This document shows, in pieces, positions 20,490 through 34,243 of a DNA stretch of 55,733 bases. The DNA is taken from positions 12,653 through 68,385 of the forward strand of contig CAMYLR010000018.1 of the NCBI GenBank assembly GCA_947259315.1, given 5' to 3'. The position numbers and the translations under genes are program-made. Every line of letters begins with the position of its first letter. Position 1 is the stretch's first letter. Under the pieces are notes generated by a model that did not search any database, was not told the origin of the DNA, and saw only the letters and a program-made list of their open reading frames with translations. This stretch comes from an uncultured Gemmatimonadales bacterium. Lineage in GTDB: Bacteria > Gemmatimonadota > Gemmatimonadetes > JACCXV01 > JAHWKZ01.

Positions 20490-21140
20490 TTACAGTGCGA
20501 AGTCCGGATTGACGCCGCGCATGAAACGCTCCTCCTCTTCCAGGTGTGCTACCAGGTTTTTCCTGTCGGGCGCGTTCGCGGCCCGGTCGAGCCAGTACTC
20601 CTCGAGTGCAGCGTCGATCGATGCGTGGTTCAATCCGTCTGGGTCGGATGCACGTCTGTGCTTCAAGTAGGCCACGATCGCCTGTGCTTCTTCACGCGTG
20701 AAAACCGACAGCCTCTGCCGCCCATAGTCGTACCACGTCATCGCTCCGTATCGCCTTGGGTTCACAAATGCCGATTTCCCGGTCTTACGTACGAACGTCC
20801 CAGACTCGGTTGGGACCTCAACGGCGATGTCGTGGAACCCGTGCACGAGATGAAAGACGGGGTCTTCGGTCATCAGCTGGTCCCGCAGATCGGCGACCAT
20901 GTACGCCGGCATATAGAAACGGAACCCCGCCTCGGAGAAGAAGTTCAGCGCACCCGCGTTGTCGAGAACTTGCGGGTCGACCGCCTCCCAGTCCTCTTGC
21001 CCGACAAACGGGCCAACGGCGTCGGCCGGCTCACACCCTTCGAAGCTGCCCTGAAGGAAGTGATCACCCGGGTACTCGTTGGAGCCAAAAGCTTCGCGAA
21101 TCGTCTCGACCACCCGATCTCGATCGCTCACCTCATGCAT
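20490..21140 (-). CDS. DUF6714-like protein
   Basis: The 216-residue product is soluble, with EGCEPADAVGPFVGQEDWEAVD, GFRFYMPAYMVADLRD and FTREEAQAIVAYLKHR as its most distinctive stretches. The FYMPAYM segment and the final helix resemble DUF6714 proteins, recalled from memory and not certain. No enzymatic motif is visible. It is the last gene of the operon headed by the FtsZ-like/HD-GYP fusion and overlaps the GAF gene by eight bases (ATGCATGA), so it should be co-translated. Confidence 0.65.
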   Translation of the reverse strand: MHEVSDRDRVVETIREAFGSNEYPGDHFLQGSFEGCEPADAVGPFVGQEDWEAVDPQVLDNAGALNFFSEAGFRFYMPAYMVADLRDQLMTEDPVFHLVHGFHDIAVEVPTESGTFVRKTGKSAFVNPRRYGAMTWYDYGRQRLSVFTREEAQAIVAYLKHRRASDPDGLNHASIDAALEEYWLDRAANAPDRKNLVAHLEEEERFMRGVNPDFAL

Positions 21141-21642
21141 CCGATTGGCTCGAAAACTTGTCTCCTAGTGCCGCCGCGATCGACTCCAGGAACTTCCGGT
21201 CGATGTCTCCAAACGCATCCAGCCAGTCGGAGTCGATGTCGATCTCGCCTATGACACCCTCGGGTCCATGAATTGGGACCACGATCTCCGACTTGGTCGA
21301 CGGAAAACAAGCGATGAACTCGGGTCGCTCGGCCACGTCCGGTACGAGCTCGGTCTCTCCGGTTGCGGCCGCCAACCCGCAGATCCCTTCACCGATCCCG
21401 ATGCGGGTGTGCTCGGTCTCTTCGGGCCCACTCCAGGCCGAAAGCAAGAGATCGTCACCATCGACGCTGTAGATACCGACCCACGAGTAGTGCTCAAACG
21501 CCACGTACAGCTCGTCGCACACCCGTTGGTGCGCCTCGGCGAGGCTGGGTGCTCGGTTGATCGAACCGACCAGCTCCTCCCGCGCGGCGTCGTATGCTGA
21601 CTTGGGGACGCCGGGCCTGGCCGCGCTTGAGTTCTCAGTCAC
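21133..21642 (-). CDS. GAF-domain protein, free-methionine-(R)-sulfoxide-reductase-like
   Basis: This 169-residue GAF domain has GEGICGLAAATGETELVPDV and FIACFPSTKSEIVVPI followed by GEIDIDSDWLDAFGDID, the fRMsr (YebR) pattern. Cys88 and Cys112 are 24 residues apart, matching Cys94 and Cys118 of E. coli fRMsr. The third conserved Cys (E. coli Cys84) is missing, its place reading HTRIGIG. It may still reduce free Met-R-sulfoxide with a two-cysteine cycle, or be a sensor. The GTG start overlaps the plsC stop (GTGA). Confidence 0.78.
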   Translation of the reverse strand: MTENSSAARPGVPKSAYDAAREELVGSINRAPSLAEAHQRVCDELYVAFEHYSWVGIYSVDGDDLLLSAWSGPEETEHTRIGIGEGICGLAAATGETELVPDVAERPEFIACFPSTKSEIVVPIHGPEGVIGEIDIDSDWLDAFGDIDRKFLESIAAALGDKFSSQSDA

Positions 21643-22433
21643 GCTGCCCCGCTCTGCGCCTCGGCTGGCAGGTCCGGCAACGCGTCACGGATGTCGGTCC
21701 ACACCCGTTGGCGGAACTCCTCGAGCTGACTCTTATCGTAATCATCGACTTCGACCGGCGGTCGGACGAAGACATCGATCGACCCGGGTAGAATCCACCA
21801 CTCACCCTTCTTCATAAGCTGTTCGGTCCCCATGATGGCGACGGGCAGTATCGGCAAGCCGGTGTCGATCGCCAGGTGAAACCCACCTTTCTTGAACGGC
21901 GCGAGCCGGCCGTCAATGCTCCGCGTCCCCTCGGGCATGATCACGAACGACACGCCCTCGTCACTGTTGGCCGCGGCTTCCTTGAGCGCTGCGATCGACT
22001 TGTCCCGATTCTGCCGGTCGATCGCGATATGCCGGCTGAGCGCGAATGCCCAACCGAAGAAAGGCACCCTCAGCATCTCGTGCTTGCCGATCCATCGCAG
22101 ATCACGACTCTTCCCGAGAAGGTAGTGGAGCGCCGGGATGTCGTACATGCTTCGATGGTTGGCCATCACGATGTACGATCGCCCGGAAACGACGTTCTCC
22201 AATCCGTGGCCGCGTAGGCCGACGTTCGATCCGCGCAGAATAAACCATACCCAGAATCGTTCGAACGCGTTTACCAGTCGACTGTTGGGGCCGATCGCCG
22301 CGGATGGGATGTACACCATCGCCAGCCCCACCGTCAGAATCGCCAACGCGATCCAGCAGTACAACGTTCGGACGACCGCATACGGCCACCAGAGCACGGC
22401 CATGAGCCCGCCGCGAGGCCGGCGATCGGTCAC
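21639..22433 (-). CDS. plsC: 1-acyl-sn-glycerol-3-phosphate acyltransferase
   Basis: The 264-residue protein has an N-terminal membrane helix (about 25-45) and the PlsC motifs NHRSMYD (92-98, the HX4D active site), RWIGKHEMLRVPFFGW and PEGTRS (167-172). It transfers an acyl chain to lysophosphatidic acid to make phosphatidic acid at the inner membrane. The proposed GTG start overlaps the stop of the MinD-like gene (GTGA); an ATG at 22403 is an alternative. Its place in an operon with a MinD-like ATPase and an FtsZ-like fusion is unusual and may link lipid synthesis to cell-envelope growth; that is inference. Confidence 0.88.
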   Translation of the reverse strand: MTDRRPRGGLMAVLWWPYAVVRTLYCWIALAILTVGLAMVYIPSAAIGPNSRLVNAFERFWVWFILRGSNVGLRGHGLENVVSGRSYIVMANHRSMYDIPALHYLLGKSRDLRWIGKHEMLRVPFFGWAFALSRHIAIDRQNRDKSIAALKEAAANSDEGVSFVIMPEGTRSIDGRLAPFKKGGFHLAIDTGLPILPVAIMGTEQLMKKGEWWILPGSIDVFVRPPVEVDDYDKSQLEEFRQRVWTDIRDALPDLPAEAQSGAA

Positions 22434-23377
22434 CGGCGCGAAGACCGCTGGTCGGTTAGCTGATCGGTCCACGAGATCAGCTGTTTCGAGATCTTATGCC
22501 GCGGATGTGCGAGCAGGAACGGCTCTCCGTCGCGCACCGCCTGCGCGACGCGCCGGTTCTCCGGTATCACCCCGAGCGCCTGGCAGACGAGCCCCAGGTT
22601 CTCCTCGAGCACTGATCGGAACCGCGTCAAGAACTGTCGATCGCGGCGACCGCGGGAACGGTTCAAGACGAGCAGCGGTGTGTTCTCCTGCAGGATACCC
22701 GTCACCTCTGGTCGGACCGCAGGAAACTCGGCGCGAAGGTTTTCGACCAGGCTGGTGATCGTGCGATCTCGAACTTCGGCAACAGTCCCCGACGTTCGAT
22801 AGTGATCGAGAATAAAGCTCATGATCTCTTTTCGGTCACGAAACTCGGTCAACAATCGCCGCAGCAAGTAGTTCTTGAGAAACCCGTACGCGTTGTGAAA
22901 TGCCGTCGCCTCGGGGTTGGTGACAACCAGCTTGATGTCACCCAGAAAGAAAAAATCGAGTGTGGCTGGCGCGCTGCCCGCTGGCAGATCGAGTACCACG
23001 TAGTCGGCTTTCAAACCCACCAGCGCACGGACCAGATCGAGCTTGCGATCGCGCAGTGGATCCACAGCGGTGATCAAATCGAATGAGCCGGCGACGTAGC
23101 GCAGGTTGTCGAGCTGGGTCGGTTGCGAGATCGCGTCCAGATTTTCGGCCCGGTCGTCGAGAAAATCAGCCAACTCGCGTTCGGGAAACGACTCGCCCAA
23201 AAAGAGGTTGAGGTTCGAACCGCCGAAGTCGAGATCCACGGCTGCCACGCGGCGTCCAATAGTGGCGCCTCGTTGAGCCAAGGCCAAAGCGAGGTTGGCG
23301 GCTAGAAAAGACTTTCCGACCCCACCCTTGCCACCGCCGATGGCGACGATGACCGGCCCCGGACGGGGGTCATGCAT
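22430..23377 (-). CDS. MinD/FlhG-like P-loop ATPase
   Basis: The 315-residue protein has the deviant Walker A motif GGGKGGVGKS at residues 14-23, VAAVDLDFGGSNLNLFLG (the switch I region) and YVVLDLPAG. These place it in the ParA/MinD group, close to FlhG. A C-terminal amphipathic membrane-targeting helix typical of MinD is not clear; the tail is basic. Such ATPases position division, flagella or other machines. No fli or flh gene is nearby. It begins six bases after the FtsZ-like/HD-GYP fusion gene, so a joint role in spatial organisation is a fair inference. Confidence 0.85.
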   Translation of the reverse strand: MHDPRPGPVIVAIGGGKGGVGKSFLAANLALALAQRGATIGRRVAAVDLDFGGSNLNLFLGESFPERELADFLDDRAENLDAISQPTQLDNLRYVAGSFDLITAVDPLRDRKLDLVRALVGLKADYVVLDLPAGSAPATLDFFFLGDIKLVVTNPEATAFHNAYGFLKNYLLRRLLTEFRDRKEIMSFILDHYRTSGTVAEVRDRTITSLVENLRAEFPAVRPEVTGILQENTPLLVLNRSRGRRDRQFLTRFRSVLEENLGLVCQALGVIPENRRVAQAVRDGEPFLLAHPRHKISKQLISWTDQLTDQRSSRR

Positions 23378-23383
23378 GGAGGA

Positions 23384-25747
23384 TCAAACGGCGTCGGCTT
23401 CGCTATCCAGAGATGGCATCAATTGACCGATCGTCTCGGTCAGAGTCTGCACGATGGCTGAGTCCAGCGTGTACTGCCCCAGAATCTGAAGTCGCGAGAG
23501 CGCTTCGCCAAGCGCCAGGTGCTCGCGGAACGGCCTCGGATGCGTCAACGCCTCGAGCGTGTCGCACACCGCAAGGACGCGGGCGCCGGGGTCGATCGTC
23601 TCACCCGACATCCCCTCAGGGTACCCGGTGCCGTCCATCCGCTCGTGTTCCTCCAGCACCATGCGCGCGATGTCACCGGTCATCCCGGTGATCTCCTGGA
23701 GGCGTTCGTATCCCTTTTCGGGATGTTGACGAATGGCTGTGTCGAACAGCTTCGGGGGCAACCGCATGTCGCTGTCCCAGTTCTCACGGGTCTGTGCCAT
23801 TCCGATATCATGAAGCATGGCCGCCGTGCCGACGTCAATGATATCGGTCAACGTCGTCTCGAGCTGATCAGCGGCCAGGATCGCTAGCACCGCCACGTTG
23901 ACGTGGTGTCGCTCGAAGTACTCTTCCTCGACCGGTTCGAAGACCTCCCGCAATAGAGGTTCGGCGTCTTCGCGCAGGACCTCGAGCAGATCGTACAACG
24001 CGTACCGGATCTTCCCCAGGTCGATGTCGGCACCGAGGTTTTCGGCAGCCATCACGTGGCGCGCGATCATCAACGCGTTCTCGTACGGCGTTCCGGTGAA
24101 CTCCAGCTCGGCCACTGCGGTCGCCGCTGGTTCAGCCTGCGCCACCGGGGCCGGGGCCGCGGGCTTGACCGGTTCAGCCTCGATGACCGGCGGTTCGACG
24201 TCGATCACCGGTGGTGCGGAGCTGGTCTCCATCGGTGGCTCGGGTTCCATCGGCGGTTCCGGTTCCATAGTTGGTTCCGGTTCCACAATTGGCTCCGCTT
24301 CCACAATCGGTTCCGGTTCCGCAGTCGGTTCCGGTTCCGGCTCCGGCTCGGTCGGTAGCGGCTCGGCCTCGACCGCGGGCGCGCTCATCTCCGGTGCAAC
24401 CGGGGGCTCGACCGCTTCTTCCGCGACTTCTTCAACCACCTCGGGCTCCGCGACCGGCTCAGGCTCCACGACCGGCTCGGGCTCGACTTCGGGTACCGGC
24501 TCAGCTGGCGGGGCAGGTGGTTCAACCGTGAGCTCCGCCAACCCCGTTGCGTCAGGCGACAGGAAATCTTCGCCCAGCGGGATCAACGCTCCGGCGGCGC
24601 GGCGCTTTTCGACCATGCGCTCACGATCGGCCTGCACGCTGTCTCTCAGCGCCAACATACCGGTCGGGAACGGCAAACCGGCCGAGACGAGCATCGCCAT
24701 CGCCGGTTGGTCAGCGTAGAGCGCCTGCGTCATCGCGCACGGGGCTGCCTCTTCCCAAGCCGACTCGACCAGCTGGTCGAAACGCAGGCGACCCTCTGCC
24801 TCCAGCCACGGGCGCGGGGCGCGGACGACGGGCAGGATCGCCTGCGCATCGCTCCACCCGAAACCATCGGGCTGCCATGTCACCCTCGCATCGGTCATCC
24901 GCGTGTGCCAGTCATCACCCTTGGTCAGCATCTCGCGTGACAGCTCCACCTCGCGCCAACCGACAAAACCCGGCGCTGAGAGCTGCTGGACCAGAGAGCT
25001 ACGGCTAAGGCCCAGGACCGGCTCTGCGTCTTCGCCGCCAACCAATTCGAACAACCCCAGCAGGCGCTCGAGCGCACGGTTCGCTTCCTCGTCGGCGCGC
25101 ATCCCGAGACCCTCGGATGGTTGAACCACCAGTACGCTCGCGGACGGCGCTTGAAGCACTCCGTTCAGCGCAACCAGGCCTAGAGCTCGTTCGTCAGGAC
25201 CCGACTGCAACCCGGGGAGCCGCGTCACCGCCAACCGACCGACGTTCGGGGCCAGTGCTTCGAGCTGACCCAGCAAGGTGCCGAGCAACGCCCCAGCGTG
25301 CGTGCTGACGTTGGCGACAACGACAAACAAGTCACAATCGGCATCGTTCGTTAGCGCTGTCGAGACGGCTTCGTCGGCGCGGAGCGCATCCGCGGCTTGC
25401 GTGTAATCGCCCACCACGCGGCCCGCCATGTCGACCCGATGTCGACGCGCTGCGTCGAGCTGCGCGTGTTCAACCGCAGGATCGAGGTCGATCGCACGGG
25501 CGCTCAGCCCGCTATTCGAGAACAACTCGGCCGCGCGGGTTCCCCACTCACCGAGACCGATCACCTGGATGCGGAGATCTGTCTTCACCGACCGAGCTCG
25601 CTGTTGGGAGTTCGTAGCATGTTCGGCTGACGCATCAGAGTCCGGCCGATAGTCTCCATCGGTGCGTGACACATCCTCCTCATCTTCGACAGGATCCGTG
25701 ACCACTCTGGCATCAGATCGTCCGCCGGGCGTCTTGCTGGGCTGCAT
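23384..25747 (-). CDS. Fusion of FtsZ/tubulin-like domain, Glu/Pro linker and HD-GYP domain
   Basis: The 787-residue protein has three parts. Residues 57-380 start RIQVIGLGEWGTRAAELF and follow the order of an FtsZ/tubulin GTPase domain, but the GTP-signature GGGTGTG is replaced by VSTHAGALLG, so GTP hydrolysis is unlikely. Residues 408-545 are a Glu/Pro-rich repeat linker. Residues 555-780 are an HD-GYP domain with HD at 646-647 and HERMDGTGYPEG at 701-712, which in active members cleaves cyclic di-GMP. ATG 25747 has GGAGGCATTC upstream; the longer frame is rejected. It heads a five-gene operon with a MinD-like ATPase. HD-GYP is certain; the FtsZ-like call is moderately sure. Confidence 0.8.
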   Translation of the reverse strand: MQPSKTPGGRSDARVVTDPVEDEEDVSRTDGDYRPDSDASAEHATNSQQRARSVKTDLRIQVIGLGEWGTRAAELFSNSGLSARAIDLDPAVEHAQLDAARRHRVDMAGRVVGDYTQAADALRADEAVSTALTNDADCDLFVVVANVSTHAGALLGTLLGQLEALAPNVGRLAVTRLPGLQSGPDERALGLVALNGVLQAPSASVLVVQPSEGLGMRADEEANRALERLLGLFELVGGEDAEPVLGLSRSSLVQQLSAPGFVGWREVELSREMLTKGDDWHTRMTDARVTWQPDGFGWSDAQAILPVVRAPRPWLEAEGRLRFDQLVESAWEEAAPCAMTQALYADQPAMAMLVSAGLPFPTGMLALRDSVQADRERMVEKRRAAGALIPLGEDFLSPDATGLAELTVEPPAPPAEPVPEVEPEPVVEPEPVAEPEVVEEVAEEAVEPPVAPEMSAPAVEAEPLPTEPEPEPEPTAEPEPIVEAEPIVEPEPTMEPEPPMEPEPPMETSSAPPVIDVEPPVIEAEPVKPAAPAPVAQAEPAATAVAELEFTGTPYENALMIARHVMAAENLGADIDLGKIRYALYDLLEVLREDAEPLLREVFEPVEEEYFERHHVNVAVLAILAADQLETTLTDIIDVGTAAMLHDIGMAQTRENWDSDMRLPPKLFDTAIRQHPEKGYERLQEITGMTGDIARMVLEEHERMDGTGYPEGMSGETIDPGARVLAVCDTLEALTHPRPFREHLALGEALSRLQILGQYTLDSAIVQTLTETIGQLMPSLDSEADAV
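24211..24500 (-). repeat. In-frame low-complexity repeat coding a Glu/Pro linker
   Basis: The coding strand repeats hexamer-like units for Glu-Pro, Val-Glu-Pro and Met-Glu-Pro. Reading frames on the opposite strand look like Ser/Gly repeats and are artefacts. Such tracts expand and shrink by slippage, so length variation between strains is expected. Confidence 0.8.
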
Positions 25748-25982: not shown

Positions 25983-27380
25983 TTACACGTCGTGAAACTC
26001 ACCCGGGTGCGGTACGGCCACCTGGGCACACCCGTTTTCCTGCAAGCGCTGGGCCAGAGCGAGCGCCTGGGGCTCCTCGCCGTGCACGAGGAAGATGTTG
26101 TCGGGGGCCGGGTTACAGCCACCGGCGAAGCCGATCAGCCCGTTTCGATCGGCGTGCCCCGAGAAGGCCCGGATGTCGACGATCTCGGCGTCCACCAGCA
26201 CGTCGACGCCGAAGATCCTGACCTCGGGCTGGTGCTCGATCAGCCGGCGGCCGAGGGTGTGCTTGGCCTGAAACCCGACGATCAGCACCGTGTTGCGTTC
26301 GTCTTCGAGGTTGTTTCGCAGGTGATGCACGATACGCCCGGCGTCACACATCCCCGATCCAGCGATAATGATACTCGGCTCCTCTTCGTAATTGAGCGCC
26401 TTTGAGTCCGACACCTCACTGATGTAGCGCATAGTGCGAAACCCAAACGGGTCTACGTCCTCCCAGAACGTGCGCGCTTCGACATCGAAGTACTCCGGGT
26501 TGAGCTTGAAGATCTCGGTGATGTTGATCGTAAGGGGGCTGTCGATGTAAATCGGGAGGACCGGGATCTTCTTCTCGATCAACAACCGATGAAGCAGATA
26601 GAGCACCGTCTGTGCGCGTTCGAGCGCAAACGCGGGGATCAGCACTTTCCCGCCCCTCGCGACCGTGCGATTCACGACCTCGGCCAGCTTATCCTTGCCG
26701 CTGTGCGGTTCGTGCAATCGGTCGCCGTAAGTCGATTCCATAATAAGGACATCGATGTCCTCGACCGGCTGGGGGTCGCGCAGCAGCGGCATATTCGGGC
26801 GACCCAGATCGCCAGTGAAACAGATTCGCTTCTCTTTCCCGTCGGTCTCGATATCGAGAATCGTGATCGCGGACCCCAGCACGTGGCCGGCGTCACGAAG
26901 CTCGAGCCGAATCCCCGGCGCCAGCATCATGGGCGCTTCGTAGTTCACGCTCACGAAGTTCCCCATCGCTGCCACCGCGTCCTCCTCGGTGTACAGCGGT
27001 TCAACCTCGGGCTCGTTCCGGGATCGAATACGGCGGTTGTAGTAATCCGCGTCCCGCTCGTGGATGCGAGCCGAGTCGCGCAACATCGCGGCGCACAGGT
27101 CGCGCGTCGCGTGGGTAGTGTAGATCGGCCCCTCATAACCCTGTTTTACAAGTGACGGGATGTTTCCGCTGTGATCGATGTGGGCATGGGAGAGAACCAT
27201 GTAATCGATCCCAGTGGCATCAAACGGCAAGAAGCGGTTCCTCTCTTCGGCCTCCTTCCGCCGGCCCTGGTACATGCCACAATCGAGCAGCACGCGTTTT
27301 CCCGCAGCTTCGATAACGTGCATCGAGCCGGTCACGGTGCGTGCCGCGCCGAAGAAGAAGATCCGGAGCCGCGAGTTCAC
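25983..27380 (-). CDS. Metallo-beta-lactamase / beta-CASP RNase-family protein
   Basis: The 465-residue protein has the HxHxDH zinc motif at 65-70 (SHAHIDH), a DAGHVLGSA motif, FTGDLGRPNMPLL and the beta-CASP features ESTYGDR, IPAFALERAQTVLYLL and SGMCDAGRIVHHL. The final HxD motif FSGHADR is present. Members are RNA exo/endonucleases of the YsdC/CPSF-like group. The GTG start overlaps the pnp-type phosphorylase stop (GTGA). It ends the nucleoside-salvage operon, where it could supply nucleotides from RNA, though its cellular place is cytosolic. Confidence 0.9.
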   Translation of the reverse strand: MNSRLRIFFFGAARTVTGSMHVIEAAGKRVLLDCGMYQGRRKEAEERNRFLPFDATGIDYMVLSHAHIDHSGNIPSLVKQGYEGPIYTTHATRDLCAAMLRDSARIHERDADYYNRRIRSRNEPEVEPLYTEEDAVAAMGNFVSVNYEAPMMLAPGIRLELRDAGHVLGSAITILDIETDGKEKRICFTGDLGRPNMPLLRDPQPVEDIDVLIMESTYGDRLHEPHSGKDKLAEVVNRTVARGGKVLIPAFALERAQTVLYLLHRLLIEKKIPVLPIYIDSPLTINITEIFKLNPEYFDVEARTFWEDVDPFGFRTMRYISEVSDSKALNYEEEPSIIIAGSGMCDAGRIVHHLRNNLEDERNTVLIVGFQAKHTLGRRLIEHQPEVRIFGVDVLVDAEIVDIRAFSGHADRNGLIGFAGGCNPAPDNIFLVHGEEPQALALAQRLQENGCAQVAVPHPGEFHDV

Positions 27381-28246
27381 ACCGATCGTAATTCGCTCGC
27401 CGCGGACCGGATGAACGCCCTCACCAGCGCTTCGATTCTCGGTCGAGCGTCAGCTGCCGCCTCCGTTACCTCATCGTGGTGCAGCGGCTCGGCGGTCAAT
27501 CCGGTGGCGTAGTTGGTCAGCAACGAGATCCCCACCACCGGCAGCTCGAGCTCGGCGGCGGCAACCACTTCCGCCACAGTCGACATCCCAACCGCGTGGG
27601 CACCGATTTTTCGCAGGAGGCCGATTTCGGCAGCCGTCTCGTAGCTGGGACCAAGCACGCCAGCATAGACGCCTTCGCGCAGCGGGATCTCGTGTTCGAG
27701 CGCGATCGCCGTCAGCTGCTCACGAAGCCCGGCGTCGTAAGCGTTGCACATGTCGGGAAAGGGGTTTGTCACTTCATCCGTCGGGCGCCCGATCAATGGG
27801 TTCGCAAACTGGAGGTTGATGTGATCGGTGATCGATAGCAGCGTCCCGGGTGGATGGTCGGGATCGAGCGAGCCGGCGGCGTTTGTCACCAACAGGAATC
27901 GGGCGCCGAGTGCGGCGAACACCCGCACCGGCAGGGCCAACCACGGCGGTGGGTACCCCTCGTACAGATGGAATCGACCCTGAGCAAAGCCGACCGGCAC
28001 GGTATCGAGCGTGCCGACGACGAAGTGACCGCTGTGACCCTCGACCGTCGATCGCGGGAAGCCCGGGATCTCGTCGTACCCGACCGTCATCGGGTCGTCG
28101 ACGTCCTCGGCCAAGTACGACAATCCCGACCCTAGAATCAGTCCGGCTTCTACCCGTCCCGCGCCGGCTGCACGAAGTCGATCCACCGCATCCTCGACGA
28201 GAGCGGTAGGGCTAACGGTCGGGTTGGCACCGCGGGGGACGTTCAC
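27377..28246 (-). CDS. punA: Purine nucleoside phosphorylase
   Basis: About 289 residues. The trimeric PNP pattern is clear: LILGSGLS, GFPRSTVEGHSG, ALGARFLLVTNAAGSL, DHINLQFANPLIG, GPSYETAAEI, HAVGMSTVAEVVAA and LTNYATG. It splits inosine or guanosine with phosphate to base and ribose-1-phosphate. The GTG at 28246 gives the usual length; sequence further upstream is Arg-rich and looks non-coding. It follows the nucleoside transporter by 139 bases and is coupled to the downstream RNase gene. Confidence 0.9.
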   Translation of the reverse strand: MNVPRGANPTVSPTALVEDAVDRLRAAGAGRVEAGLILGSGLSYLAEDVDDPMTVGYDEIPGFPRSTVEGHSGHFVVGTLDTVPVGFAQGRFHLYEGYPPPWLALPVRVFAALGARFLLVTNAAGSLDPDHPPGTLLSITDHINLQFANPLIGRPTDEVTNPFPDMCNAYDAGLREQLTAIALEHEIPLREGVYAGVLGPSYETAAEIGLLRKIGAHAVGMSTVAEVVAAAELELPVVGISLLTNYATGLTAEPLHHDEVTEAAADARPRIEALVRAFIRSAASELRSV

Positions 28247-28385
28247 CTCGGGTCGGGTATCGTCGTTCGAGGCCGTTTCGCGGGAGCGAGCCGAGACCCC
28301 ACAGGGTAACCGAGGAGGCTCGGCGACGCGGAGCGCCGGCCTCGCAAGATGATACCCCACCTGAGCATATCGATCATCATCGGTG

Positions 28386-29900
28386 TCACAACAACGCCCC
28401 AGCGACGGTCGCCGTCATGAACGCTGCCAGCGTGCCGGCGATCATCGCCCGCAGTGCGATCTTTGCCAGATCCTGCTTTCGGTTCGGCGCGATGCCTCCA
28501 ATACCACCGATCTGGATCGCGATCGAGCTGAAGTTCGCGAACCCGGCCAGGGCGTACGTCGCGATGACGATCGAGCGTGGGGAAAGATCCGAACCTTCGC
28601 CGAGTATGTTGGCGAGCTGGATGTAGGCAAAGAACTCGTTCAATACGGTCTTGATCCCGAGCAGCGAGCCGATCGTCGTGGCGTCTTTCCACGGGACACC
28701 CATCACCGCCGCAAGCGGTGCCAGCACCCACCCGAATATCTGCTGCAGCTGGAGCCCCTCGACGCCGAACAGGCCACCGACCCAACCGATAATCCCATCC
28801 GCCATGTAAATCAGCGCTATGAAAGCCAGCAGCATCGCACCGACGTTGAGCGCCAGGAAGAGTCCCTCGGACGCACCACGCGTTGCGGCCTCGATCACGT
28901 TGACATCGGGTGAAGGCACATCGGCCTTGAGCGTACCGGCGGTTTCGGGTTCCTCGGTCTCCGGGTACATGACCTTGGAGATCACGATCGCCGCCGGGGC
29001 GCTCATCACGCTGGCTGCCAGCAAGTGGCCGGCGATGTCGGGGAAGAAGTTGACGAGCATCCCCACGTAGGCTGCCATCACCCCCCCGGCCACGGTCGCA
29101 AAACCACCGGTCATGATGCAGTGGAGCTCGCTCATCGTCATCCGATCGACGAACGGCTTGATCATGAGCGGCGCCTCGGTTTGGCCGACGAAGATGTTGC
29201 CCGACGCCGAGAGCGTCTCCGCACCCGACGTGCCCATCGTGCGCTGCATTATCCACGCCATCCCCTTGACGAAAAACTGCATCACTTTGAGGTGATACAG
29301 CACCGTCATGAACGAGGCGAAGAAGATGATCGTCGGCAATACCGTGAATGCGAAGTACGATCCGCTGTTGGCCCATTGCGCGGGGTCGTCGGGCTGGATC
29401 GGAGCCATCGTGGCCGGATCCCCGACCGGCGTTCCGACCGGGATATTGTTGTAGATCAGATTTCCGAAGATGAAGCGCGACCCGTCCTGCGTGTACGATA
29501 TGATGTTGATGAACACGGTGTTCATCAGCGCGAAGAACTGTTCGCCGGGAGCGGTCCGTAGGATGAGAAGCGCGAATATGAGCTGCAGCGCGATCCCCCA
29601 GAGCACGATTCGAGCCGGGAAAGAGCGCCGGTTGACCGACAAAAGCCAGGCGATAAAGACCATCACACCGAGCCCGAGGATCGATGCCGCGCGTTGCTCG
29701 AGCGGGGTGTCGAGCGCCTCGCGAGCCTCGGCGGCACGCGCACCGGCCTGGGTCGGGTCGCCCTGCGTCTGAACGATCGTCGCGGCCGCGCTATCGGGCG
29801 CGGCGACGGTCGATAACCAACCCGCTCCGATCAGCGTCACGGTCACGATCCACAACGCGATCGCCCACCGTCGGAGTGGGCTCCGCGGTCCGTTACTCAC
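28386..29900 (-). CDS. nupC: NupC/CNT-family Na+ (or H+)/nucleoside symporter
   Basis: The 504-residue protein has around ten membrane spans with the CNT landmarks GQTEAPLMIKPF (substrate site), TIGSLLGIKTVLNEFFAY and GFANFSSIAIQIGGIG. It imports nucleosides across the inner membrane. A large loop rich in Ala/Asp at 35-70 precedes the core and is longer than usual. The GTG start overlaps the add stop by eight bases, and the purine phosphorylase follows, giving a salvage operon in pathway order. Confidence 0.93.
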   Translation of the reverse strand: MSNGPRSPLRRWAIALWIVTVTLIGAGWLSTVAAPDSAAATIVQTQGDPTQAGARAAEAREALDTPLEQRAASILGLGVMVFIAWLLSVNRRSFPARIVLWGIALQLIFALLILRTAPGEQFFALMNTVFINIISYTQDGSRFIFGNLIYNNIPVGTPVGDPATMAPIQPDDPAQWANSGSYFAFTVLPTIIFFASFMTVLYHLKVMQFFVKGMAWIMQRTMGTSGAETLSASGNIFVGQTEAPLMIKPFVDRMTMSELHCIMTGGFATVAGGVMAAYVGMLVNFFPDIAGHLLAASVMSAPAAIVISKVMYPETEEPETAGTLKADVPSPDVNVIEAATRGASEGLFLALNVGAMLLAFIALIYMADGIIGWVGGLFGVEGLQLQQIFGWVLAPLAAVMGVPWKDATTIGSLLGIKTVLNEFFAYIQLANILGEGSDLSPRSIVIATYALAGFANFSSIAIQIGGIGGIAPNRKQDLAKIALRAMIAGTLAAFMTATVAGALL

Positions 29901-30930
29901 GAATCTCGCCGAGCGCCTCGATCGCCTCGCCGATCAGCGCCTTACGCTCTGGGTACCTGAGAAACGCGCTCTTGAACCCGTTCAGCACCACTTTCTTGAT
30001 CTCTTCCAGATCGAAGTCGAGATGCTTACAGCACAGCTCGAGCTCATTCGTCATCGTGGTGTCGGACATCAGTCGGTTGTCCGTGTTTATCGTGACCCGG
30101 ACCTCCCGATCGAAGTACTCGCGGATCGGGTGTAGCTCGATCGACGGTACAGCCCCGGTCTGGACGTTGGATGTCGGGCACATCTCGAGTGCGATCCGGT
30201 GATCGCGGACGTACTCCATCAGGTCCGGGTCTTCCCGCAGCCGGACGCCGTGCCCGATCCGATGCGCACCGACCCAGTGCAACGCCTGGTGTATCGAGTC
30301 CGGTCCGTACGCCTCACCAGCGTGCACCGTGACGTTGAGGTTGGCATCGCGCACCAGGTAGAACGCCTCGCGGAACCGCTTTGCCGGGTTGTCGCGCTCT
30401 GCGCCCGCCAGATCGAACGCTACGACGCCACGGTCCTTGTACTCGACCGCAAGCGCCGCCAAGCGAATAGCGCGACTCGGCTCGAAGTGTCGAAGCCCGG
30501 AGATGATCTGGTGCGAACGGGTCCTCGGGTACGTTTCTTGTCCACGTCGCAAGCCGCGCTCGATGGCGTCGATTACTTGGCGCGGCGAGAGCCCGCGTTT
30601 GACGCTCAGGAGCGGCGCGTACCGCACCTCCATGTACCACACATTCTCACTCGCGGCGTCCTCGACGAGCTCGAACGCGATCCGCTCGAGCGCCGACTCG
30701 GTTTGCATAACCGCGGTGGTGACGTCGAACCGCTCGAGGTACGCTACGAGATCCCGCTTGGGCAGCTCCTCGGTGAAGAAGCGGCGTACGTCATCGACGG
30801 TCTCGAACGGCAGATCGACGTCGTCTTCATGAGCCAGCTCGAGAATCGTCTCGGGCCGCAGTGAGCCGTCGAGATGAACGTGAAGGTCGGTCTTGGGGAG
30901 GCGCTCGAGCAGCCCGCGGTCGACGCTCAC
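29893..30930 (-). CDS. add: Adenosine deaminase
   Basis: The 345-residue enzyme deaminates adenosine to inosine. Zinc motifs KTDLHVHLDGS (about residues 11-21), VTVHAGEAYGP, RIGHGVRL and the INTDNRLMS stretch are all present, with catalytic Glu in HAGEA. The GTG at 30928-30930 is chosen because the conserved N-terminus begins right there; the upstream frame lies within the nucleotidase gene. It starts four bases after the nucleotidase stop and overlaps nupC. Confidence 0.93.
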   Translation of the reverse strand: MSVDRGLLERLPKTDLHVHLDGSLRPETILELAHEDDVDLPFETVDDVRRFFTEELPKRDLVAYLERFDVTTAVMQTESALERIAFELVEDAASENVWYMEVRYAPLLSVKRGLSPRQVIDAIERGLRRGQETYPRTRSHQIISGLRHFEPSRAIRLAALAVEYKDRGVVAFDLAGAERDNPAKRFREAFYLVRDANLNVTVHAGEAYGPDSIHQALHWVGAHRIGHGVRLREDPDLMEYVRDHRIALEMCPTSNVQTGAVPSIELHPIREYFDREVRVTINTDNRLMSDTTMTNELELCCKHLDFDLEEIKKVVLNGFKSAFLRYPERKALIGEAIEALGEIRE

Positions 30931-30934
30931 TCGA

Positions 30935-33900
30935 TCACTCTGACGTTTCTTCGGGCCACGGGGCAAGCTGTTCGATCCGCCCCTGGACCGAATAACGAAT
31001 TGGTTGCGGCAGCTGCGCCAAGTGCGCAACCATGACCTCGCTGTCGACGAGTCCCGTGTTGATCACCTGCTGAGCCTCACCCAAAGCGTCATAACCACTT
31101 CCACCGGATACCATGAAGTTGTTGGCGGTCACCGTGTAGAGCCGTTCCGGCTCTACCGCTCGACCGTCTCGTATCACTGCAACCTCGCCCTCCTCCAGCG
31201 TCGCGTCCACTACACGGTCGCCCACCGGTCGTGAGGGATCGAAGCGAAACCGAATCCCCGAAACCTGACCGATCTTGTCTTCGACGACCGCTTCGAGCGC
31301 CCGCTCGAGCTGAGCGCCGGTCAACTCGAGCCGCATCAGCACATTCTGAAACGGTTGGACGGCAAAGACGTCCTTGAAGGCAATCGAGCCAGCCGGCAAA
31401 TCGGTTCGTATCCCACCGCCGTTGACGATCGCGATCTGGTCGCCCGTAGCGGCTCGTTGAGCGTCGGCGATCAAGTCTCCCAGCGCCGACTCCTCGCCCC
31501 GCGCCCGCTCGAGCGTGTCGACGAGCCGGGCTATCGGCGCGTCGGCGATCTCGGCCACCTCGGTCCGGCAATCGGCGACGATATCAGCCACAGCTCTGTT
31601 GGGCTGGACACCCGTTGAATGACGCGTCGTCCAAACGTCGATCGTGTGATCGACGACTCGTCCGAGATCCCGCAGGTAGCTCAACGTGACGACGCCGAGC
31701 GCCGTTCCGCTGGACCGGGCTTGAACGATCGGGATGTTGTTCTCCACCGTTTCGACCAAGCTGTGGGTGTGACCCGAGACGATCAAATCGACCGGCGCGG
31801 TGATCCGGTTCGCGGCGTCGACGACCTCGCCCGAGTAGACGCCTTCATCGTCTCCGAACGCGCCGGCATGCACGGCGACGAAGATCAAGTCGGCGCCTTG
31901 GGCTTTGAGTTCGGGCGCCAGCTCGTTGACGACGTCGGCGATGTCGCGGAACTCATAGTCGGCGACGTTCTGCGGCATCGTCGTTTCCGGCGTCGACACC
32001 GTCGACGCACCGATGACACCGATCTTGAGGTCGGCTCGCTCGAACCACGCGTACGGCTCGACCCAATCCGGCCGCAATCCCGTATCACGAACAAAGATGT
32101 TGGCCGACAGCCACGGGAACACCGCTTCGCCCATGCGCGCGCGAAGCGTCTCCACCCCCCAGTCGAACTCGTGGTTGCCGATCGCAGCGGCGTCGAGCCC
32201 GATCTCGTTCATGGCGGCGACCGTCGAGCGACCGGCGGTCAGGTTCGAGATCACCGTCCCCTGCATGACGTCCCCACCGTCCAGGTGGAGCACGACGTCG
32301 GGGTAACGCGCCTCGACCGCGCGAGTGAATGCGGCGAGGACCTCCGCGCCACCGACGGTGTCTCCTTCGGCCCAACCCGGGGTCAGCGGTTCGAGCGCAC
32401 CGTGAAAGTCGTTTGTCGCCACGACGACCAGCCGCAGCGTGTCGTTGTCGGCAGAAGTTGGCGGTGGCAGCGCGTCTAGCATGCGCCTGAGCGGGGTGAC
32501 CTGCGAGTGGGCTTCGCCCTCGATCCGCTCTTGCTCCCGTTCCACCGGAATCGTGATGTCCATGCCGGCAGCCGTCTCAGGCATCAACCGCCATGACGGT
32601 TCGAACACTTCGGCATGGCGCAACGTGTCGCGGGCGCCGATCCACTCGATCAGGAGCTGCCGGATCTCCTCCTGGCGATCGTACACGACGGGAGCGCCCT
32701 GGAGCATCGAGAACCCACCGCCGCCGCTCTGGCGGTAGTTGTTGATCGCCAGCGTGAACGCCTGGTCATCCGTGACCGCTTGACCCTCGAACGTGAGATC
32801 GCGAATCCGTGAGCCGATCGGCTGCGAGAGATCGATCGTGTAGTCGACGCCGGCCACCATGTCGTAGTTGTAGCCCGGAATCGAGTCGACAAAGACGTCG
32901 AAGTCACCCTCGGCGTTGACGTTCGCGCCCTTTTCGTCCACGCGGTGGAAGAAGCGTGCCGAGTACTCGAGGTACGCGCGGAGCTGGGCGCCGGTGATCT
33001 CGATCGCTTTGAGCGTGTTGTCGTAGATATAGAGACCCGCGGCGTCCGCCACGGTGATGGCACCCTTTTCGATCTGAGCCTCGGTCGTAAAGGCCGACGC
33101 GGCCGAAAGGTGGGCCCCCGTCGCTTCAAGCTGGACCCGCTGGATCAGGTCGATGACGGGGGTGTCGATTTGCCGCGCCCGCGCCGTCGACCACGACTCG
33201 GCGGTCCAGCCGATCGTGTCGGCGACGTAGGCCATGGTGCTCTCGTGATACGGGGCCAGCGCAGCCATGAACGAATCAGACGACGGCATACCCTCCGTCG
33301 AGAGCGTCGTGGCCCTCTTGTCGACCAGCGTCCAGCCGTCCTCTTGCCTCTCCATCGTCAACGTGGCTACCGCCAGCGCCTCACCCCACTTGGCGGCCTG
33401 TGTCAGAAGGACACCGTTCACCGTCTCGGATGGGATGTCGAGGTGCGAATGGCCGAGGAAGATGACGTCGATCCCGGGCAGCGCCTCGGCCAGCCGCTGG
33501 CCCGCGTTTTCCTCGGGTACGCCGGTGGCCGCCGCATCGTACGAAGAGCCCGGGCCCATGCCGGAGTGGATCGCCACGACCTGGACATCGCTCGCCGCCT
33601 CCAACTCGGGCCAAACGCGGACGGCAGACTCCACGATGTCACGAAACTCGAGCTCGCCTTCGACGTGACGCCGATCCCAGATCATCGAGCCCGGGGTCGT
33701 CAAACCGAGAACGCCAACCAGGACTCCGCCGACGTTGATCACCGTGTACGGGGGCCAGCGGGTGGTGTCGGTGCCCGCGACAAAAACGTTGGCCGCGACA
33801 AACGGGAAGCTCGCATCCTCGAGGGCTCGATTGAGCGCTTCGAGGCCGTAGTTGAACTCGTGGTTGCCGACTGTCGAAGCGTCGTACTCGAGGTGGTTCA

Positions 33901-34243
33901 TGGCGTGGACCACGGGGTGCACCTCGGCCGGCTCGACGATCCCGAAGTAGTAGTCGAGCGGGTTGCCCTGCAGGAGGTCGCCCGAGTCGACCAGCAAGAC
34001 GTGCTCGTTGGCGGCACGGATCGAATCGACCAGGGTCGCGACCTTGGCCAAGCCGCGCTCCTCGGGTTGCCCGGTGTAGTAGTCCCACGGTACGAGTCGA
34101 CCATGGACGTCGGTCGTGCCCATGACGACGACCTCGACGCGGTCGCCCGGCTGCGCACCGCGCTGGCCGACCGTGTTCGACGCACACGCAGCCACCACCG
34201 CTGCCAGCGTCAACGCTCCGATTGTGAAAAGAGAAGCTTTCAT
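30935..34243 (-). CDS. Double nucleotidase lipoprotein (CpdB-like plus UshA-like halves)
   Basis: The 1102-residue protein has a lipobox (VAAC, Cys20), so it is membrane-anchored facing outward. It contains two full nucleotidase units. Unit 1 (about 36-560) has GTTDVHG, GNHEFNYG, LGHSH and LYIYDNTLKAIEITG, like CpdB 2',3'-cyclic phosphodiesterase/3'-nucleotidase. Unit 2 (about 603-1102) has ATNDFHG, GNHEFDWG, SGHTH and FAVQPFQN, like UshA/NutA 5'-nucleotidase. Each has its metallophosphatase and C-terminal substrate domain. Ordinary family members are single units of 550-650 residues. It should release phosphate and nucleosides from extracellular nucleotides. Confidence 0.92.
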   Translation of the reverse strand: MKASLFTIGALTLAAVVAACASNTVGQRGAQPGDRVEVVVMGTTDVHGRLVPWDYYTGQPEERGLAKVATLVDSIRAANEHVLLVDSGDLLQGNPLDYYFGIVEPAEVHPVVHAMNHLEYDASTVGNHEFNYGLEALNRALEDASFPFVAANVFVAGTDTTRWPPYTVINVGGVLVGVLGLTTPGSMIWDRRHVEGELEFRDIVESAVRVWPELEAASDVQVVAIHSGMGPGSSYDAAATGVPEENAGQRLAEALPGIDVIFLGHSHLDIPSETVNGVLLTQAAKWGEALAVATLTMERQEDGWTLVDKRATTLSTEGMPSSDSFMAALAPYHESTMAYVADTIGWTAESWSTARARQIDTPVIDLIQRVQLEATGAHLSAASAFTTEAQIEKGAITVADAAGLYIYDNTLKAIEITGAQLRAYLEYSARFFHRVDEKGANVNAEGDFDVFVDSIPGYNYDMVAGVDYTIDLSQPIGSRIRDLTFEGQAVTDDQAFTLAINNYRQSGGGGFSMLQGAPVVYDRQEEIRQLLIEWIGARDTLRHAEVFEPSWRLMPETAAGMDITIPVEREQERIEGEAHSQVTPLRRMLDALPPPTSADNDTLRLVVVATNDFHGALEPLTPGWAEGDTVGGAEVLAAFTRAVEARYPDVVLHLDGGDVMQGTVISNLTAGRSTVAAMNEIGLDAAAIGNHEFDWGVETLRARMGEAVFPWLSANIFVRDTGLRPDWVEPYAWFERADLKIGVIGASTVSTPETTMPQNVADYEFRDIADVVNELAPELKAQGADLIFVAVHAGAFGDDEGVYSGEVVDAANRITAPVDLIVSGHTHSLVETVENNIPIVQARSSGTALGVVTLSYLRDLGRVVDHTIDVWTTRHSTGVQPNRAVADIVADCRTEVAEIADAPIARLVDTLERARGEESALGDLIADAQRAATGDQIAIVNGGGIRTDLPAGSIAFKDVFAVQPFQNVLMRLELTGAQLERALEAVVEDKIGQVSGIRFRFDPSRPVGDRVVDATLEEGEVAVIRDGRAVEPERLYTVTANNFMVSGGSGYDALGEAQQVINTGLVDSEVMVAHLAQLPQPIRYSVQGRIEQLAPWPEETSE

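Follow-up and report, generated by a model that had tools for sequence, protein, structure and literature searches.

The window, which is the whole stretch of DNA analyzed here (55,733 nucleotides), belongs to the genome of an uncultured Gemmatimonadales bacterium (G000; 2.4 Mb in 33 contigs). Its minus strand carries an open reading frame that runs from an ATG at 25747 to a stop codon at 23384, exactly the limits given in an earlier note on this DNA, with GGAGG immediately 5' of the start codon. The gene (23384..25747) encodes a protein of 787 amino acids, delimited by its translation and by orthologues of like architecture. It consists of an N-terminal tail (residues 1-56), a predicted FtsZ/tubulin-like domain (residues 57-400; 24548..25579), a Glu/Pro-rich linker (residues 401-565; 24053..24547) and an HD-GYP-type domain together with the helical region before it (residues 566-787; 23387..24052), all on the minus strand. 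The linker had already been noted as Glu/Pro-rich, and indeed 42 of its 165 residues are Pro and 40 are Glu. It was delimited by composition and orthologue alignment, in which its length differs from one orthologue to another.

Conservation and distribution

A search for homologues with the same domain order, as the earlier note had suggested, was carried out among 395 sampled Gemmatimonadota genomes. The domain is present in three of them, namely the window's genome, G001 and G002, all of a single family. The G001 orthologue (contig L001) is 82% identical to the window protein across 787 amino acids, while that of G002 (L004) shares about 48% identity over the N-terminal domain. The N-terminal domain, linker and HD-GYP domain are kept in a single frame in L001/L003 (G001) and in L004 (G002), so that orthologues with this architecture occur in two genera. 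Between the window and L001, dN/dS is 0.058 for the N-terminal domain, 0.029 for the HD-GYP domain and 0.21 for the linker. Both domains are therefore constrained within one reading frame, and the open reading frame is a true gene under purifying selection.

A scan of genome contigs for relatives gave L001 as the sole match, identical to the G001 contig where aligned, and no relatives were found among viral contigs and plasmids. Weak matches L005 and L007-L012 turned out to be 3HCDH proteins and L006 a GpsA-like protein; all were rejected. As phyla beyond Gemmatimonadota were scanned for close relatives only, the protein is best described as found so far only in one Gemmatimonadota family.

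Gene neighbourhood

Six bases past the stop codon starts a gene for a MinD/FlhG-like ATPase of 315 amino acids (22430..23377, minus strand; Pfam CbiA, 4e-15), with FlhG and MinD as best PDB matches (FlhG, 3.5e-23). It shares the intact deviant Walker A motif GGKGGVGKS with MinD/FlhG (PDB 4rz2, 3q9l) but differs from them by an extra segment of about 60 amino acids (about 168-236), and it scores under the MinD equivalog cut-offs. A C-terminal membrane-targeting helix was looked for and no clear one was seen. The ATPase gene adjoins the target gene in G000, G001 (L001) and G002, the G002 neighbour being 64% identical; among 298 sampled Gemmatimonadota genomes, no strong full-length relative was found except in G002. 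Since flagellar rod families were not detected in the window's genome and five relatives (G000-G005), the FlhG-like ATPase is unlikely to have a flagellar function, and that reading was rejected.

Further downstream on the same strand lie genes for a PlsC-type acyltransferase (21639..22472; Pfam Acyltransferase, 5.9e-32), whose coding region shares 43 bases with the ATPase gene, and for a GAF-domain protein (21133..21642; Pfam GAF_2, 3.5e-11), which overlaps the acyltransferase gene by four bases. A DUF6714 protein gene (20490-21140) ends this run of overlapping minus-strand genes. Upstream of the target gene, a metallo-beta-lactamase/beta-CASP/RMMBL protein is encoded (25983..27380, minus strand; Pfam Beta-Casp, 1.8e-39), and this order is kept in G002 (L004). 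A nucleoside-salvage cassette occupies window positions 27377-34243 on the minus strand and comprises a tandem-duplicated 5'-nucleotidase fusion (1102 amino acids), adenosine deaminase, a Na+ nucleoside transporter and purine nucleoside phosphorylase.

Canonical ftsZ is carried by G001 and G002 and was not found in G000 using PF00091. In the latter genome, a Mur ligase (dcw) cluster (G000:C11:132326-140538) reaches the contig end where ftsQ/ftsA/ftsZ would be expected. Loss of canonical FtsZ was rejected on this ground, and the missing ftsZ is most likely an assembly gap.

The C-terminal HD-GYP domain

The identity of the C-terminal domain is certain. Pfam HD_5 (PF13487) matches residues 611-756 at 8.4e-21 (74.9 bits against a cut-off of 27.2), in agreement with the earlier note. 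Active-site residues were mapped by pairwise alignment to V-cGAP3 and PmGH from the PDB and by alignment with the other HD-GYP domains of the genome. H614, the HD pair at 646-647, H675, H701, D729 and GYP are kept. The Lys of HDxGK is replaced by M650 (HDIGM) and the first His of HHE by E700 (EHE, as part of EHERMDGTGYP), and both substitutions are common to the window protein, L001 and G002. The description of these motifs as intact thus stands for the letters HD and HERxDGTGYP, but not for the full HDxGK and HHExxDGxGYP set of active HD-GYP phosphodiesterases, which is broken at M650 and E700.

Because the residue mapping is pairwise and Glu is able to bind metal or to stand in for His as a metal ligand, 'doubtful enzyme' is a fair reading of this domain. 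Compared with PmGH (PDB 4mcw), the positions of H189, H221, D222, H250, H277, D305 and GYP are kept and those of D183 and D308 are Glu; where PmGH and V-cGAP3 (PDB 5z7c) have HDxGK and HHE, the target has HDIGM and EHE. The position of PmGH E185 is Tyr, a trait of the second HD-GYP subgroup described along with PmGH, and alanine mutants of PmGH in K225, H276 or D183 lost all activity (PMC4159591). Bd1817 of Bdellovibrio, an unconventional inactive HD-GYP protein (PDB 3tm8), likewise combines the HD-GYP fold with an altered active site (PMC4159591); it matches the target sequence at E 0.00032 but lacks the GYP tyrosine that the target retains. From these residues, standard phosphodiesterase activity appears doubtful; a role as c-di-GMP receptor, or as a phosphodiesterase of weak and altered activity, is more likely.

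Besides the target, the window's genome has four GGDEF and four HD_5 matches, making c-di-GMP signalling plausible in this organism. Another of its HD-GYP domains, L071 (G000:C28:1548-2039), has HDVGL for HDxGK and a complete HHE; the Lys position is therefore variable in this organism.

The N-terminal domain

The FtsZ/tubulin-like assignment of the N-terminal domain is based on Foldseek, hhalign and MAFFT, with no Pfam match. FtsZ/tubulin families of Pfam (PF00091, PF13809) do not match any orthologue at E-values up to 10, and a PF00091 search of the window's own genome does not retrieve the target. Among PDB sequences, nothing significant and no FtsZ or tubulin was obtained, the best being NAD-binding proteins, none with an E-value below 0.4. 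The best weak Pfam match is 3HCDH_N, which stays below threshold (E 0.0089-0.067; 15.1 bits, cut-off 22), followed by the GpsA N-terminal domain.

Profiles were compared with hhalign, using as query a 350-amino-acid stretch from the three orthologues. A 16-sequence FtsZ profile aligned with positions 6-145 at a score of 31 and kept to the expected order through the T4 region, while 25-40 column shuffles reached at most about 21. With the profile restricted to the ten Gemmatimonadota FtsZ sequences, the score was 19, within shuffle range. A seven-protein 3HCDH profile reached 48.3 (P ~6e-6; positions 8-146), a value inflated by selection because it was chosen as best from whole genomes. Of this score, 38.4 comes from the first 45 positions, the GxGxxG segment, which is common to many nucleotide-binding folds. 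Over positions 41-350, the 3HCDH profile scores 18.2 (shuffle maximum 18.0) and the wider FtsZ profile 23, slightly over its own shuffles. With the generic GxGxxG motif set aside, the sequence alone therefore leans weakly to FtsZ.

Structures were predicted with AlphaFold2 without templates, from an input alignment of three distinct sequences, and model confidence was low: the window protein reached a pLDDT of 42.7 and the G002 homologue one of 48.1, with pTM at 0.38-0.39. Searched against the PDB with Foldseek, the window model gave TubZ first and CetZ second, followed by Odin tubulin, BtubA, MjFtsZ and many tubulins. For the G002 model, likewise of low confidence, CetZ came first (E 0.004) and the top 50 were mostly FtsZ, CetZ, TubZ and tubulin, many over 260-300 columns. 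Phage tubulin-like proteins were among the matches in a viral library. Rossmann-type NAD(P) dehydrogenases, a fold common in the PDB, are missing from the top 50 of both models. No match of either low-confidence model attains E 0.001, TM-scores are around 0.2, and models of this quality may yield meaningless Foldseek matches. The two models are not independent either, as one shallow alignment is common to both. The models suggest that residues 57-400 adopt a diverged tubulin-superfamily fold, which we regard as likely and put no higher than that because of the low model confidence, the redundancy of tubulins and FtsZ in the PDB and the shared alignment.

The earlier note had made the FtsZ-like call by eye and had proposed AlphaFold and Foldseek as a check. 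That check, at pLDDT 43 and 48, returned tubulin-superfamily proteins as best matches, and together with hhalign scores above shuffles it leaves the call as the best reading, albeit one with no match in Pfam or PDB sequences. The FtsZ-like order of elements receives indirect support from the models and from hhalign over positions 6-145, while the alignment of the C-terminal half is unstable. A Rossmann NAD-binding domain, named in that note as an example of a fold that would overturn the call, has the higher total score. It is weakened by the confinement of 38 of the 48 3HCDH points to the first 45 positions, but no more than weakened, because both AlphaFold models are of low confidence.

Residues 64-69 form a T1-like GLGEWG. 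The GGGTGTG loop, reported as missing, is indeed not found in the translation: the T4 position reads ANVSTHAGALL, with STHAGAL or SAGAGVM as the aligned residues in orthologues and GGGTG(S/T)G in none. When aligned with FtsZ by MAFFT, all orthologues have unrelated residues in place of T3 (GLGAGA), T4 (GGGTGTG), T6 (PND) and T7 (NxDxxD). The T7 position (about 246-256), where the Asp pair is missing, is the least certain, two alignment settings differing in the C-terminal half. With these motifs missing, GTP-driven polymer formation by the protein is unlikely, and the N-terminal domain, if the fold is right, would be a pseudo-GTPase.

Comparison with known proteins

CetZ, TubZ and FtsZ are the best structural matches of the two low-confidence models, whose predicted strands and helices appear to follow one another as in these proteins, S7-H9-S8-H10 and the long helix after S10 among them. 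The target differs from these proteins in the missing T3 (GLGAGA), T4 (GGGTG(S/T)G), T6 (PND) and T7 (NxDxxD) motifs, in having no profile-level sequence match to them and in its fusion to HD-GYP. In the passages of Makarova and Koonin (2010; PMC2875224) that deal with them, FtsZl1 and FtsZl2 (Tubulin_2) are described as having very diverged FtsZ-like N-terminal domains with family-specific C-terminal extensions (coiled-coil, alpha/beta or protein kinase), as recognized by the T4 signature GGGTG(S/T)G, and as having a neighbourhood suggestive of a role distinct from classical division. On that description they are the closest published precedents for a diverged FtsZ-like domain with an added C-terminal region, but they keep the T4 loop that is missing here and have no HD-GYP domain; the Tubulin_2 profile does not match the target. 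A family-wide survey of FtsZ/tubulin proteins (PMC9871819) mentions protein kinase additions to Tubulin_2 proteins, and its text gave no match for 'fused' or 'Gemmatimonad'. Within the open-access literature no described FtsZ/HD-GYP fusion was found, in line with the earlier note, which knew of no described protein of this architecture, and the pairing looks undescribed.

Interpretation

The reading we favour, at a level somewhat short of probable, is that a pseudo-tubulin domain and an altered HD-GYP domain together make up a scaffold or c-di-GMP receptor that is positioned by a MinD-like partner. The N-terminal domain, a diverged FtsZ/tubulin member without GTP-binding and hydrolysis motifs, would serve to bind other proteins or to assemble together with them, rather than polymerize on its own as a GTPase, and the long, flexible Glu/Pro linker would tether the HD-GYP-type domain to it. 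With its Lys to Met and His to Glu changes, the latter domain would more likely read c-di-GMP than consume it, and the adjoining MinD/FlhG-like ATPase probably places the protein in the cell. This reading builds on an observed architecture, conservation, loss of motifs and gene neighbourhood; the fold, the pairing with the ATPase, the ligand and everything that concerns cell biology are inferred.

The earlier note had instead proposed that a polymerizing FtsZ-like GTPase is fused to an active c-di-GMP phosphodiesterase, thereby coupling messenger level to cytoskeletal position. This would fit the tubulin-like fold suggested by the models, the kept residues HD, H614, H675, H701, D729 and GYP, and the GGDEF proteins of the genome. 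Against it stand the absence of T3, T4, T6 and T7 from all orthologues and the occurrence of Met and Glu where alanine mutants of PmGH were inactive, and we consider it very unlikely. Alternatively, the tubulin-like domain might join or cap canonical FtsZ filaments and bring an altered but working HD-GYP domain to the septum, possibly with another cyclic or linear nucleotide as substrate. The canonical ftsZ genes of G001 and G002 and the neighbouring MinD-like ATPase, suited to division-site control, are in keeping with this alternative, as are the ability of Glu to replace a His metal ligand and the Leu for Lys of L071. Yet divergence at the interface is too great for its residues to be assessed, and a substrate is not inferable from sequence; we hold this option to be unlikely.

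A different fold altogether would make the N-terminal domain an NAD(P)-type Rossmann domain, resembling 3HCDH or GpsA, that controls HD-GYP as a redox or metabolite sensor. The GxGxxG motif with, beyond the second strand, an acidic residue (GLGEWG ... ARAID), the 3HCDH matches in Pfam and hhalign and the NAD-binding proteins heading the PDB sequence comparison all point in this direction. Apart from the GxGxxG segment, however, the 3HCDH score is at shuffle level, no such dehydrogenase is among the leading structural matches, and the predicted C-terminal half of the domain is alpha/beta, which suits the FtsZ order, unlike the all-helical C-terminal domain of 3HCDH. A sensor of this kind is thus distinctly unlikely.

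Returning to the pseudo-tubulin scaffold or receptor, a more specific version, which we rate as rather unlikely, is that a c-di-GMP receptor uses the pseudo-GTPase as an address tag, positioned by a dedicated MinD-like ATPase. If true, these apparently non-flagellated Gemmatimonadota would have adapted a Min-like positioning system to second-messenger signalling. Should the fold hold, the protein would present a tubulin-superfamily domain that lacks GTPase motifs and is fused to a second-messenger domain, an example of a cytoskeletal fold reused as a signalling scaffold, and the locus would offer a small, testable system joining c-di-GMP, FtsZ-like proteins and a MinD-like ATPase.
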